Assembly: GCA_024278985.1 (NCBI GenBank)
Contig: JAJRSC010000018.1
Coordinates: 1-42,392, forward strand
Length of the DNA: 42,392 nt
From: an archaeon
Lineage (GTDB): Archaea; AGJL01; Methanococci; Methanococcales; Methanocaldococcaceae
Direction of reading: 5' to 3'
The translations under genes were made by a program, and so were the position numbers. Below the pieces are notes generated by a model, which worked only from the letters and a program-made list of their open reading frames with translations, did not search any database and was not told the DNA's origin. Position 1 is the first letter of the stretch. Each line of letters starts with the position of its first letter. Positions 36,499-42,392 of the stretch are shown one piece after another.

Positions 36499-36732
36499 AT
36501 GAAACTAAAAGATATTATAAATAAAATCTTTTGGCATCCTGATTATAATAAGGAAGATTATGAAATTATTATTTTACATAGAGGTGGTAAAGATAATAAA
36601 AAATCCATAAATTTAGAAGATATCAAATTAGAGGGTAATTTTATAATATATTATGATTCCTATATCCCCCTCCATAGAGTTTTAGCAATAAGAAATAAAA
36701 AAACAGGAGAGTTAATATATTCTAAATATTAA
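36499..36732 (+). CDS. DUF504/UPF0248 family protein
   Basis: 77 residues matching the small archaeal UPF0248 family: [28 protein letters not shown] at the N-terminus (seen as IFWHP and IILHRGG) and [15 protein letters not shown] near the C-terminus. The two HR-containing loops suggest RNA or nucleotide contact, and the function is unknown. No ribosome binding site precedes the ATG; the preceding 40 bases are nearly pure A/T, so the mRNA may be leaderless. The stop codon overlaps that of rtcB on the other strand. Confidence 0.85.
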
Positions 36733-39269
36733 CCTTTAATAACTCCTAATGGTCTCATTCTTACGACTTTTTTAGAGATTCCTGCTTTATGAGCTGTATC
36801 AGCCACTAAATCAACACTTTTATAAGCATCTGGAGCTTCTTCTGCTAAAACTGCCTTAGAATCACTCATTACAATAATACCCTCACTTTCTAATTTTCTT
36901 TTAATTTCTTTACCTTTCCAGATTTTTAGAGCTTTGGCTCTACTTAACTTTCTACCTGCTCCATGAGCAGTTGAACCAAATGTTTCCATCATCGCCTTCT
37001 CTGTTCCAGCCATTATATAAGAAGCTGTTCCCATATCTCCTGGTAAAATAACTGGCTGACCTACATCTCTGTATAGTTTAGGAATTGCTTCATGATTATA
37101 AAATGCTCTTGTAGCTCCTTTTCTATGAACAACAACCTTAACCTTTCTTTTATCTATTTTATGTTCCTCTTTTTTTGCTATGTTATGGGCCACATCATAA
37201 AGTATATACATCTCCATATCTTCTGCATATCTATTAAATACATCTTCAAAACTTTCTCTAACCCAGTGAGTAATCATCTGTCTATTTGCCCATGCATAGT
37301 TTGCTGCTGCACACATAGCTTTATAATAACTTTGCCCTTCTTCAGATTCAAATGGAGCACATGCTAACTGTCTGTCAGGAATTGATATACCATATCTTTT
37401 ATATGCCTTCTCTAAGATTCTTAAGTAGTCAGTACAGACTTGATGACCTAAACCTCTTGACCCACAATGTACCATAACTACTACTTGATTTTTCTCTAAA
37501 CCATAAACTTCTGCTATTTCTCTATCATAAATTTCTTGTATATATTGAACTTCTAAGAAGTGATTTCCACTTCCTAAACTTCCTAACTGAACTCTACCCC
37601 TTTCTTTTGCTTTATCAGAAACATAAGAAGAATCTGCATCTTTCATACATCCATTTTCTTCTATAAACTCTAAATCTTCTTTCCAACCATAACCTTCTCT
37701 AACAGCCCATCTAACACCTTCTTCTAATACTTCATCCATTACACTCTTACTAAATTTAAGAATTCCCTTACTACCTAAACCTGATGGAACATTTTTAAAT
37801 AATGTTTTAATCAACTCCTTAATTTTTGGTTGTACTTCATCTTTTGTAAGATTTGTTTTTATAACTCTAACTCCACAGTTATGGACAACTATACCATTAG
37901 CTATAAAATTATGCTCCTCTTTAATAACTCCAATATCATATAACTCATCATTGTAAGGAATAGTTTTTATTTCTTTAATTTCATCTAAAACAAATCCTCC
38001 TATTAAACCATATTTTTTTATAAACTCTGTAAGATTTCCTTTATGTTTTCTTTTTAAATATTCACAAAGTAATAAACCAAAAATCTTTTTTTTCTTATTG
38101 TACTCAAAGTTTATTTTTCTTAAAAATTCTAATTTATCATTATCCATATCTATAATTAATTTATCTTTATAAATCTTACAATTTATTTCAAACTCAGATA
38201 ATAAAATTTTTATGTCTTTTAAAAATTCATTTATTGGAATTTTTATGAATATGAAAGTGTTTATTTCTCCAATAGCACCAAACAATCCAGATAAGAAATT
38301 TCTCTTAATCCATTTTGGGGCTTCTTTAATCCAGTCAGGAATTTGATTTATATTTTCAAATCCCAATTTGTTAATAAATTGTATAAATGCCTCTGAACTT
38401 ATTATAATATACTTATCTTTTTCTAATATATCAACTCTTAACTTCTTTAAATCATTTTTAATATTTTTTAAAGTTTCTTTATCTCCAAATATTAACAGCT
38501 TATTATCTTCACATTTTCCATTTCCAAATATATAACCCAACAATCTTGCAACTGTTCCTATATATTTACTATCCATTTTAAATGGTATTAAATTTTTATT
38601 TTTTAAGTATTCTACAAAGTTTGGATTTATATCATCTTTATTTAGTATTATTTTGTTGGATGGTTTTATATACTCTACACCATCATAAGGATACACAACT
38701 ATTAACTCACCTTTTTTTAATAATTTCATTGGTTTATAACCCTCAACTGTTAAAATTGGATGGTCTTCACTACCTTTTAAAATTCTACCAGATTTAGTTA
38801 TTATTTTTATTATAACTTTTCCATTCTCTTTTCTTTCTGAAACAAATAATATTCTTGAACTTTTTTCTCCTTCATTTTTATTATATATTTTTATATTTAA
38901 ATTTATATTTTCTTTTAAATCCTTTATTTTGATAAAATAACCATCTTCAGTTAAAATCTTAGTATCTGGAGTAAGACAGTTAATATCAAAACCAACTCCT
39001 CCAGGGCTTATGACTCCATCTTTTTGGTCAAATGCTGCAACTCCTCCAATAGGAAAACCATAACCATAATGAACATCTGGCATGGCTATAGAATACTTAT
39101 ATATTCCAGGTAGGCATGCAACATTAGCAATTTGTTCTAAAACCTCTGGCTCTAATTCATCCAATAATATCTCATTTAAATAAATTCTTCCAGGAACTCT
39201 CATACAGTCCTTATAATCCTTTGGAAGTTCCCAAACTACATCATCAATTCTTTTTAATATCTCTTTCAT
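36729..39269 (-). CDS. rtcB: RNA-splicing ligase RtcB containing an intein
   Basis: RtcB joins 2',3'-cyclic phosphate and 5'-OH ends of split tRNA exons and other RNAs using Mn2+ and GTP. The 846-residue precursor consists of an N-extein (1-97), an intein (98-464) and a C-extein (465-846); the spliced protein is 479 residues, the normal size. Metal-site motif VGFDIN|CGVR spans the splice junction: the conserved metal-binding Cys is C-extein residue 1. Other conserved parts are [52 protein letters not shown] and GSTAHGAGR with the guanylated His. It follows GGGATAAATT before ATG. Confidence 0.97.
37878..38978 (-). mobile_element. RtcB intein with degenerate LAGLIDADG endonuclease
   Basis: 367-residue intein. 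It starts with Cys ([10 protein letters not shown], block A) and contains a block [10 protein letters not shown] with the conserved His. It ends with ...[13 protein letters not shown], followed by Cys+1, so all splicing nucleophiles and the penultimate His-Asn pair are present. The endonuclease core has two LAGLIDADG-like helices, LLGYIFGNG and LSGLFGAIG, but both catalytic acids are replaced (Asn153 and Ile236 in intein numbering). It should splice but not cut DNA. M. jannaschii RtcB is also known to carry an intein. Confidence 0.92.
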
Positions 39270-40801: not shown

Positions 40802-41044
40802 CTTTTCTATTTTTATTTCATAGTTGTGTATAACAGGATTTGCTAAAAGTTTCTCACACATTTCTTTAACTCTCTCTCTTGCTTTTTCTTCATTTTCAGC
40901 ATCTAATACTATATCTAACATTTTATAACTATCAACTTCTTTAACCTCTTTAAAACCTAAGAAATTTAAAGCCTGTTTTATGGTTCTACCTTCTGGGTCT
41001 AACAAACCTTTTTTTAGTTTTATTATTACTGTTGCTTTATACAT
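40790..41044 (-). CDS. purS: Phosphoribosylformylglycinamidine synthase subunit PurS
   Basis: 84-residue small subunit that bridges PurL and PurQ in FGAM synthesis. Typical sequence is [30 protein letters not shown] (seen as [13 protein letters not shown] and [10 protein letters not shown]) and [21 protein letters not shown]. It overlaps the end of purC by 8 bp and is co-transcribed with it. Confidence 0.94.
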
Positions 41045-41753
41045 AATTATCCTCTTTTTTTATTATTCCCAACCTTCCAGCAACTATTTTATATTTTGCA
41101 ATAACATCTCCTAAATCTTTTCTAAAAACATCTTTATCTAAAATATCCCTTGTTTCCTTATCCCACAATCTCATAGTGTCAGGAGAAATTTCATCTGCTA
41201 CAACTAACCCATCCTTACATCTTCCAATTTCTATTTTAAAATCAACTAAAATAATTCCTTTCTTATCAAAGTATTTTTTTAAAATGTCATTAACTTTTAA
41301 AGCTATTTCTCTCATCTCTTTTAACTCTTCTCTTGTTGCTAAATCTAAATTTACAGCAATATCTTCATTAATCATTGGGTCTCCATATTCATCATTTTTA
41401 TAATCAAACTGAACTATTGGCTCCTTTAACTCTTGCCCCTCTTTAAAAGGATATCTTTTACATAAACTTCCAGCAGCTATATTTCTTACAATAACCTCAA
41501 TAGGAATTATTTCAACTTTTTTAGCTAATATTTTATTTGGTTCTATATATTTAATAAAATGTGTCTTAACTCCACTTTCTTCAAGGATTTTAAATAATTC
41601 AGATGAGATTAAGGCATTTAAATATCCTTTTCCTTTTTTAACATCTTTTTTTGCACCATTTCCAGCAGTTATATCATCTCTAAACTCTATTAAAACCTTA
41701 TCCTCATCATACTCATATATTGTTTTTGCTTTTCCTGAATATATTGGCTTCAT
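41037..41753 (-). CDS. purC: SAICAR synthetase PurC
   Basis: Joins CAIR and aspartate with ATP in purine synthesis, 238 residues. MKPIYSGKAKTIYEYDEDKV, FRDDITAGNGAKKD, PIEVIVRNIAAGSLCKRYPF, VDFKIEIGRCKDGLVVADEISPDTMRLWD (the last in parts: VDFKIEIGR, DEISPDTMRLWD) are family signatures. I chose ATG 41753, four bases after GTGA; a TTG/GTG-type upstream extension would overlap that site. purC-purS form one operon, and the defective purA lies elsewhere in this window. Confidence 0.95.
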   Translation of the reverse strand: MKPIYSGKAKTIYEYDEDKVLIEFRDDITAGNGAKKDVKKGKGYLNALISSELFKILEESGVKTHFIKYIEPNKILAKKVEIIPIEVIVRNIAAGSLCKRYPFKEGQELKEPIVQFDYKNDEYGDPMINEDIAVNLDLATREELKEMREIALKVNDILKKYFDKKGIILVDFKIEIGRCKDGLVVADEISPDTMRLWDKETRDILDKDVFRKDLGDVIAKYKIVAGRLGIIKKEDNYV

Positions 41754-41798
41754 ATCTTCACACAAAAAAATTTTTACATTAAATATCTGTTATGGTTA

Positions 41799-41808
41799 TT
41801 TATATATA
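41799..41808. promoter_or_regulatory. Shared TATATATA core between purC and the H/ACA RNA
   Basis: TTTATATATA is self-complementary at its core. On the + strand it would place transcription start near 41830, just before the RNA lower stem at 41835. On the minus strand it would start near 41778, giving purC a leader of about 25 nt. No other strong TATA box is seen in the 80-bp gap. Confidence 0.5.
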
Positions 41809-41834
41809 TCCCCTTTAATAAATAATTATAATAT

Positions 41835-41988
41835 CCCCCTAACCAGCCGAGCCCTGTTGAGGTTCCATTAGGATAACGATGATACAAGGGGCTCGAAGTT
41901 AGGGGGACATCTTTATGGGGCTCGGGCGGGCTGTATGAGAGAGATAACTCTCGATGAAAATGATTACAGCTCAGCAGAGCCCCTAACA
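41835..41988 (+). ncRNA. Two-hairpin H/ACA guide RNA (candidate)
   Basis: A GC-rich island with two H/ACA hairpins in series. Hairpin 1: lower stem CCCCCTA (41835-41841) with TAGGGGG (41900-41906), then ACA (41907-41909); pocket arms CAGCCGA (41844-41850) and UCGAAGU (41893-41899); upper stem, K-turn UGA (41858-41860)/GAUGA (41878-41882); 14 nt from upper stem to ACA. Hairpin 2: lower stem GGGGCTC (41917-41923) with GAGCCCC (41977-41983), ACA at 41986-41988; upper stem GGCUGUA/UACAGCU; K-turn UGA-GAGAG-AUAA-CUCUC-GAUGA; pocket arms GGGCG (41924-41928) and CAGCA (41972-41976). From memory of 23S rRNA, hairpin 1 fits E. coli U2504 (ACCUCGA-UG-UCGGCU) and hairpin 2 fits A-loop U2554 (GCUG-UU-CGCC). 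Confidence 0.85.
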
Positions 41989-42392
41989 TTACAAAACATA
42001 CATTTTAAATATTCAAGGTTTTTATTTGCCATAGGAACTGGATGGTCGAATGCTTGACCCCTATAATCAATTAAAAAAAGCTCTTTTTTTGCTCTAAAAG
42101 CTGATGAAAAAACAGTTTTTTTAAATAGCTCTCTGTCAATATGATGAGAGCAGGAACAGGTTATTAAAAATCTTTTTGCTAATTTTATTCCTAAATAATT
42201 TAAAGATGAATATCCTCTTAAAGCATTTTTTATATCATCCTCTGAACTTGTAAATGCTGGAGGGTCAAGGATAGAGATATCAAAGGATGTATTTTTATTT
42301 AAAAACTCTTCTAAGACAGAGAAGGCATTACCCTCTATAAATTCATATCTATCTTTAGGGATATTATTAAGTTCCATATTTTCCTCTGCCAA
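41964..42392 (-). CDS. RlmI-type rRNA large subunit methyltransferase, N-terminal part outside the window (partial)
   Basis: The 142 residues seen are the C-terminal half of a class I SAM-dependent methyltransferase of the 23S rRNA (cytosine-C5) RlmI type. EFIEGNAFSVLEEFL, FDISILDPPAFTSSEDD (the NPPY-like motif DPPAF), GYSSLNYLGIKLAKRFLITCSCSHHI (in parts: LITCSCSHH) and DYRGQAFDHPVPM are recognisable. The frame stays open to the window edge, so the start and the expected PUA/N-terminal SAM region lie beyond 42392. The last codons (NVRGSAEL) are antisense to the 3' part of hairpin 2 of the H/ACA RNA (25-bp overlap) and end where related proteins usually have a short hydrophobic strand. Confidence 0.85.
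   Translation of the reverse strand: MAEENMELNNIPKDRYEFIEGNAFSVLEEFLNKNTSFDISILDPPAFTSSEDDIKNALRGYSSLNYLGIKLAKRFLITCSCSHHIDRELFKKTVFSSAFRAKKELFLIDYRGQAFDHPVPMANKNLEYLKCMFCNVRGSAEL

Follow-up and report, generated by a model that had tools for sequence, protein, structure and literature searches.

The window, by which we mean the whole 42,392-nucleotide stretch analysed here, belongs to a MAG that is 86% complete (G000). On its plus strand, a GC-rich island lies in an AT-rich region between purC and a methyltransferase-like open reading frame (ORF), and this island folds into two consecutive hairpins with an ANA-type box after each. The features of the locus are listed below, with 23S positions in E. 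coli numbering.

41037-41765, minus strand: purC, SAICAR synthetase (Pfam match)
41799-41809, plus strand: TATA-box-like TTTATATATAT, probable own promoter, 26-36 nt before the first stem (from sequence)
41835-41909, plus strand: H/ACA hairpin 1 including its ACA box (fold; covariance-model match)
41835-41843, plus strand: 5' strand of the lower stem, CCCCCUAAC, pairing with 41898-41906 (double-sided changes at 8 of 9 pairs in orthologues)
41844-41850, plus strand: 5' guide element CAGCCGA, of which AGCCGA pairs with UCGGCU, 2506-2511 (own 23S; covariation at 2510 and 2512)
41851-41860, plus strand: 5' strand of the upper stem, with roughly 10 stacked layers between pocket and K-turn and UUGA at its end (read from the sequence)
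41877-41883, plus strand: K-turn signature CGAUGAU opposite UGAG (41858-41861), probable L7Ae site (sequence conservation)
41893-41897, plus strand: 3' guide element UCGAA, of which UCGA pairs with UCGA, 2500-2503 (own 23S)
41898-41906, plus strand: 3' strand of the lower stem, GUUAGGGGG (fold; stem covariation)
41907-41909, plus strand: ACA box, 14 nt from the pocket-closing pair (same spacing in the orthologues measured)
41917-41987, plus strand: second H/ACA hairpin of the RNA, with GGGCG and CAGCA as its arms and U2554 in the A-loop as its predicted target (fold)
41964-42392, minus strand: methyltransferase-like ORF, truncated (name based on the translation; Pfam gave no match)

Elsewhere in the window, the gene for the RNA ligase RtcB (36729-39269) carries an intein (PF14890) within its coding sequence.

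Hairpin 1 occupies exactly the interval, ACA included, that an earlier note on this DNA had assigned to it, with the arms CAGCCGA (41844-41850) and UCGAAGU (41893-41899) and the 14 nt (41893-41906) ahead of the ACA box likewise as described there. With a lower stem of 9 bp (CCCCCUAAC/GUUAGGGGG), it has a folding energy of -35.3 kcal/mol (z = -3.9); both hairpins together reach -70 kcal/mol (z = -6.65), a value that 0 of 200 shuffles equalled. Archaeal box H/ACA RNAs are recognized by an ACA or ANA box 14-15 nt from the pocket-closing pair, and 14 nt corresponds to the '10/5/9' spacing of productive guides (PMC4652768). At the level of sequence, hairpin 1 has the pocket, the ANA spacing and the K-turn of this class; its two arms also pair on both sides of an unpaired U-N, and the genome encodes Cbf5. 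The Pyrococcus Pab and Pf H/ACA sRNAs (PMC4652768) share the pocket, the K-turn, the 9-bp lower stem, the ANA box 14 nt from the pocket and the bipartite pairing around U-N, but differ in sequence and in target; RNAs with several hairpins are also known. The GAG and CGAUGAU elements of the K-turn were conserved in alignments of the genus and varied slightly elsewhere, making L7Ae a probable ligand of hairpin 1. We conclude that the locus is, close to certainly, an archaeal box H/ACA guide RNA.

As plain BLASTN for orthologues returned only chance-level matches, we searched first with a pattern derived from the two arms plus the ACA box, then with a covariance model. Among the 13 further genomes of the genus, the pattern recovered an orthologue in 11. 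A first covariance model found hairpin 1 in 34 of 35 other Methanococcota genomes, and a second in 35 of 36 including the window's own, M. jannaschii among them; in about 45 other archaea, the covariance model gave no hairpin 1 match above chance. Within its own genome hairpin 1 scored 65.5 bits (E = 3.8e-15), with G000 itself among the sequences of the model. Every orthologue measured, in both families, had 14 nt to ACA or AUA, and the pocket-side pairs of the upper stem were retained. Across the alignment 92.8% of pair cells were paired, and nine pairs changed on both sides, with 59 compensatory cells; 0 of 500 shuffles reached these values, and slid controls dropped to 33-55% paired. The alignment was fitted to the model and includes two paralogous rows, which is insufficient to explain the gap to the controls. 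One genome (G015) has two copies of hairpin 1, the second at C1:356197-356272; no hairpin 2 arms of the usual kind could be found after this copy or after the copy in G028 (C1:619641-619716). A further H/ACA-like hairpin lies on the minus strand at G000:C18:32126-32198, with a lower stem AGCCCCCAG/CUGGGGGC, a GAUGAU K-turn and an ACA box; in most of the genus it is matched by the model, though more weakly.

The RNA sits just upstream of purC (start at 41765, opposite strand; confirmed as SAICAR synthetase), a position that would also suit a cis-acting leader of that gene, or an antisense or terminator element. We regard this as scarcely credible. Both purC and the methyltransferase gene were absent from the fetched flanks of every orthologue outside G000, and this missing synteny, which largely refutes a purC leader, led us to reject it; the copies in M. 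jannaschii and M. vannielii instead adjoin a gene whose translation reads as inorganic-pyrophosphatase-like. The M. jannaschii copy lies near chromosome position 537590. No Rfam family, H/ACA families included, matched at the gathering score, which also counts against a leader. Because the flanking genes in G000 differ from those in all other genomes, we consider the RNA to be an independent gene. A TATA-like box of the TTTATATA type recurs about 30 nt upstream in most of the orthologues inspected (by eye).

By direct count in rrlB, the predicted target of hairpin 1 is the homologue of E. coli U2504, at about position 2601 of the M. jannaschii 23S. In the peptidyl-transferase centre, U2504 forms part of the lining of the A-site cleft, and in bacteria it is contacted by drugs. 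Relatives have GCUACAUCGAUGUCGGUUC or variants of it at the target stretch of their 23S rRNA. In G000, the 23S found with the RF02540 model ends at the end of contig C4, with its 3' part missed, and a pattern for the peptidyl-transferase strand located the missing segment at C5:710-732 (GCTACATCGATGTCGGCTCTTCC), identified as 23S by alignment. This segment reads ACAUCGA-UG-UCGGCUC. The earlier note had given ACCUCGA for its first part, a slip that leaves the conclusion unchanged: the arms do pair with the organism's own 23S on C5, the outcome on which the proposal had been staked beforehand.

The pair counts put forward for the two arms (6 of 7 and 6) hold on the organism's own 23S, but two of the first-arm pairs belong to the lower stem, where G41898 and U41899 pair with C41843 and A41842. 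With these nucleotides held in the stem, the effective 3' guide is UCGA(A/U), with 4-5 pairs. In G000 it forms the four UCGA pairs and meets an A.A mismatch at 2499, and this is probably the 3' guide duplex in the assembled RNP. The shortness of the 3' guide duplex counts against the proposed function; its energy is about -7 kcal/mol without the duplex-initiation term, a different quantity from the RNAsnoop score behind the published cutoff of -6. A.A or A.C mismatches at 2499 occur in many species. On the other side, the 5' guide in most of the genus is GAACCGA, which pairs 7 of 7 with UCGGUUC; the UCGA of the 3' guide finds its UCGA partner in all.

Scans of 23S and 16S rRNA in M. jannaschii, M. 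infernus, M. vannielii and G000 all gave the U2504 equivalent as the single best target, clearly ahead of any other site. In M. jannaschii it scored 16.0 against 9.5 for the next site, and 0 of 3,000 arm shuffles did as well. In the own rRNA of G000 the scores were 14.5 and 8.8, and the U2504 score was reached by 8 of 5,000 arm shuffles with a 7-nt arm and by 88 of 5,000 with a 5-nt arm.

Stronger evidence than these shuffle tests comes from conservation and guide-target covariation over the phylum, counted here as genomes rather than as independent events. The UCGA of the 3' guide was conserved in all orthologues with identified arms. At 2510, C occurs with a guide G in G000 and M. infernus (which we take G010 to be), and U with a guide A in all others, bar one G.U pair. 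At 2512, six genomes combine C with a guide G and nine combine U with a guide A; G was never found opposite U. At 2499, a guide U stands only opposite A (7 genomes with known 23S) and never opposite C. Mismatches at 2499 or 2512 are retained in several species. The covariation also allowed prediction. The guide G in the window implied a C at 2510 in the organism's own 23S, and this C was found as foretold with a search pattern that had left 2510 open. Similarly, the combination C2499/U2512 was expected from the guide in G033 and then found.

A principal target elsewhere, in an rRNA, tRNA or mRNA, with the 2504 match secondary, is in our estimation highly improbable. Archaeal H/ACA RNAs have been suggested to act on targets other than rRNA (PMC4652768), and our scan covered 16S and 23S rRNA only, with a mid-23S stretch unassembled in G000. 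Against this, the next-best rRNA sites score much lower, and a different target would not make the arms track the 23S changes at 2510 and 2512. The prediction of the U2504 equivalent as target thus stands, on the best rRNA site, on arms that co-vary with 23S and on the base foretold at 2510, and we consider it very likely that hairpin 1 is aimed at this uridine.

Hairpin 2 has arms that bracket the A-loop sequence GGGGCUG-UU-CGCCC, which was their best match in both the M. jannaschii 23S and the own rRNA of G000. In M. jannaschii the U2554 equivalent came out best, and the variants of hairpin 2 in G000 and M. infernus fit U2554 better than U2555. In G000 alone the match was no better than chance (745 of 5,000 shuffles), and the assignment to U2554 consequently rests on conservation, the arms being conserved in those orthologues that possess hairpin 2. 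Eukaryotes have a guided pseudouridine at the 2554 equivalent, directed in yeast by snR10, whose site we take to correspond to the target of hairpin 2. We considered whether snR10 acts at the 2504 equivalent and rejected this, as its site fits 2554.

From the observed structure, conservation, match to the own 23S and covariation, we infer that the RNA is transcribed, bound by proteins and active in catalysis. In hairpin 1, the K-turn would recruit L7Ae, and the pocket, the lower stem and the ACA box would recruit Cbf5-Nop10-Gar1. The AGCCGA and UCGA arms would then clamp the peptidyl-transferase strand of 23S around UG, setting the U2504 equivalent in the active site of Cbf5 for conversion to pseudouridine, and a pseudouridine is likely to exist at this predicted site. 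Hairpin 2 would probably act likewise on the A-loop uridine equivalent to U2554. We think it improbable that the RNA is instead an assembly chaperone for the peptidyl-transferase strand (hairpin 1) and the A-loop (hairpin 2), with little or no modification. Such a role would suit the weakness of the 3' guide duplex in many species and the aim of both hairpins at neighbouring domain V elements, and non-modifying roles have been discussed for archaeal guides without known targets (PMC3608112). However, the pocket geometry, the 14-nt ANA spacing and the unpaired UG are kept throughout, and these are needs of catalysis, not of a chaperone. A two-hairpin H/ACA guide, with hairpin 1 directing pseudouridylation of U2504 and hairpin 2 probably that of U2554, is the explanation that we strongly favour.

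Cbf5 is encoded in G000 and in M. jannaschii (PF08068 match), and Nop10, Gar1 and L7Ae are expected in all archaea of the group. No member of the RluC/RluA family (PF00849) was found in G000, M. jannaschii (presumably G007) or M. infernus. Since G000 is 86% complete, the absence there is weak evidence by itself; stronger evidence comes from the absence in M. jannaschii and M. infernus, whose genomes are complete. The M. vannielii-like genome G022 has one bacterial-type PF00849 pseudouridine synthase (C1:385475-385927, 103 bits). In E. coli, pseudouridine 2504 is made by RluC (PMC7600485), which modifies the uridine equivalent to the predicted target of hairpin 1 but is a stand-alone protein that uses no RNA guide and serves three sites. 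The earlier note's description of an RNA-guided route as a parallel solution to RluC is therefore a fair one, given the distribution of PF00849 and Cbf5 in these genomes.

In the open-access literature that we searched, no pseudouridine at 2504 was reported for archaea or attributed to an RNA guide, and we found no 23S modification data for Methanococcales at the target site. Eukaryotic H/ACA snoRNAs likewise guide pseudouridylation in the same rRNA domain, and we know of no eukaryotic cytoplasmic pseudouridine at the 2504 position. The H. marismortui pseudouridine sites inspected from PMC2584109 do not include 2504. In T. kodakarensis, only 2589, 2592 and 2607 were reported as pseudouridines within 2588-2612 (PMC6138745); counted in a Thermococcus-like 23S, these are 2493, 2496 and 2511. 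As they miss 2504, modification there is not general in archaea, and 2504 would be a new target for a known machine. T. kodakarensis Cbf5 and Gar1 also act at U2607 (PMC6138745), with the same enzyme and within a few nucleotides on the same peptidyl-transferase strand, but this reaction is guide-independent and its position maps to 2511, seven nucleotides off. We also considered whether pseudouridine 2603 of P. abyssi, a guide-independent Cbf5 site, is the same uridine, and rejected this because 2589, 2592 and 2607 fit only 2493, 2496 and 2511.

On balance, we lean towards this RNA being the first RNA-guided route to pseudouridine at 2504, phylum-wide and convergent with RluC, with the same RNA guiding modification of the A-loop at 2554. 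If so, a single dual guide would direct modification both at the entrance to the peptidyl-transferase A-site and at its heart, and a nucleotide that a protein isomerizes in bacteria appears to be aimed at here by an unrelated RNA-guided machine. The set of sites in this 23S strand would differ between this phylum and Thermococcus, and M. maripaludis would offer a genetically tractable case for asking why U2504 is modified. The RNA is also a phylum-wide H/ACA RNA new to Rfam. The small RNAs of M. jannaschii underwent a GC-content screen in 2002 (PMC3432209), so the transcript itself may already be listed.

Two minor observations concern the same region of 23S in Thermococcus. In the Thermococcus-like 23S (G040), the nucleotide corresponding to E. 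coli A2503, beside U2504, is C rather than A. In PMC6138745, the legend and the methods disagree on whether mini-23S-2607 was labelled with CTP or GTP, and position counting supports CTP.
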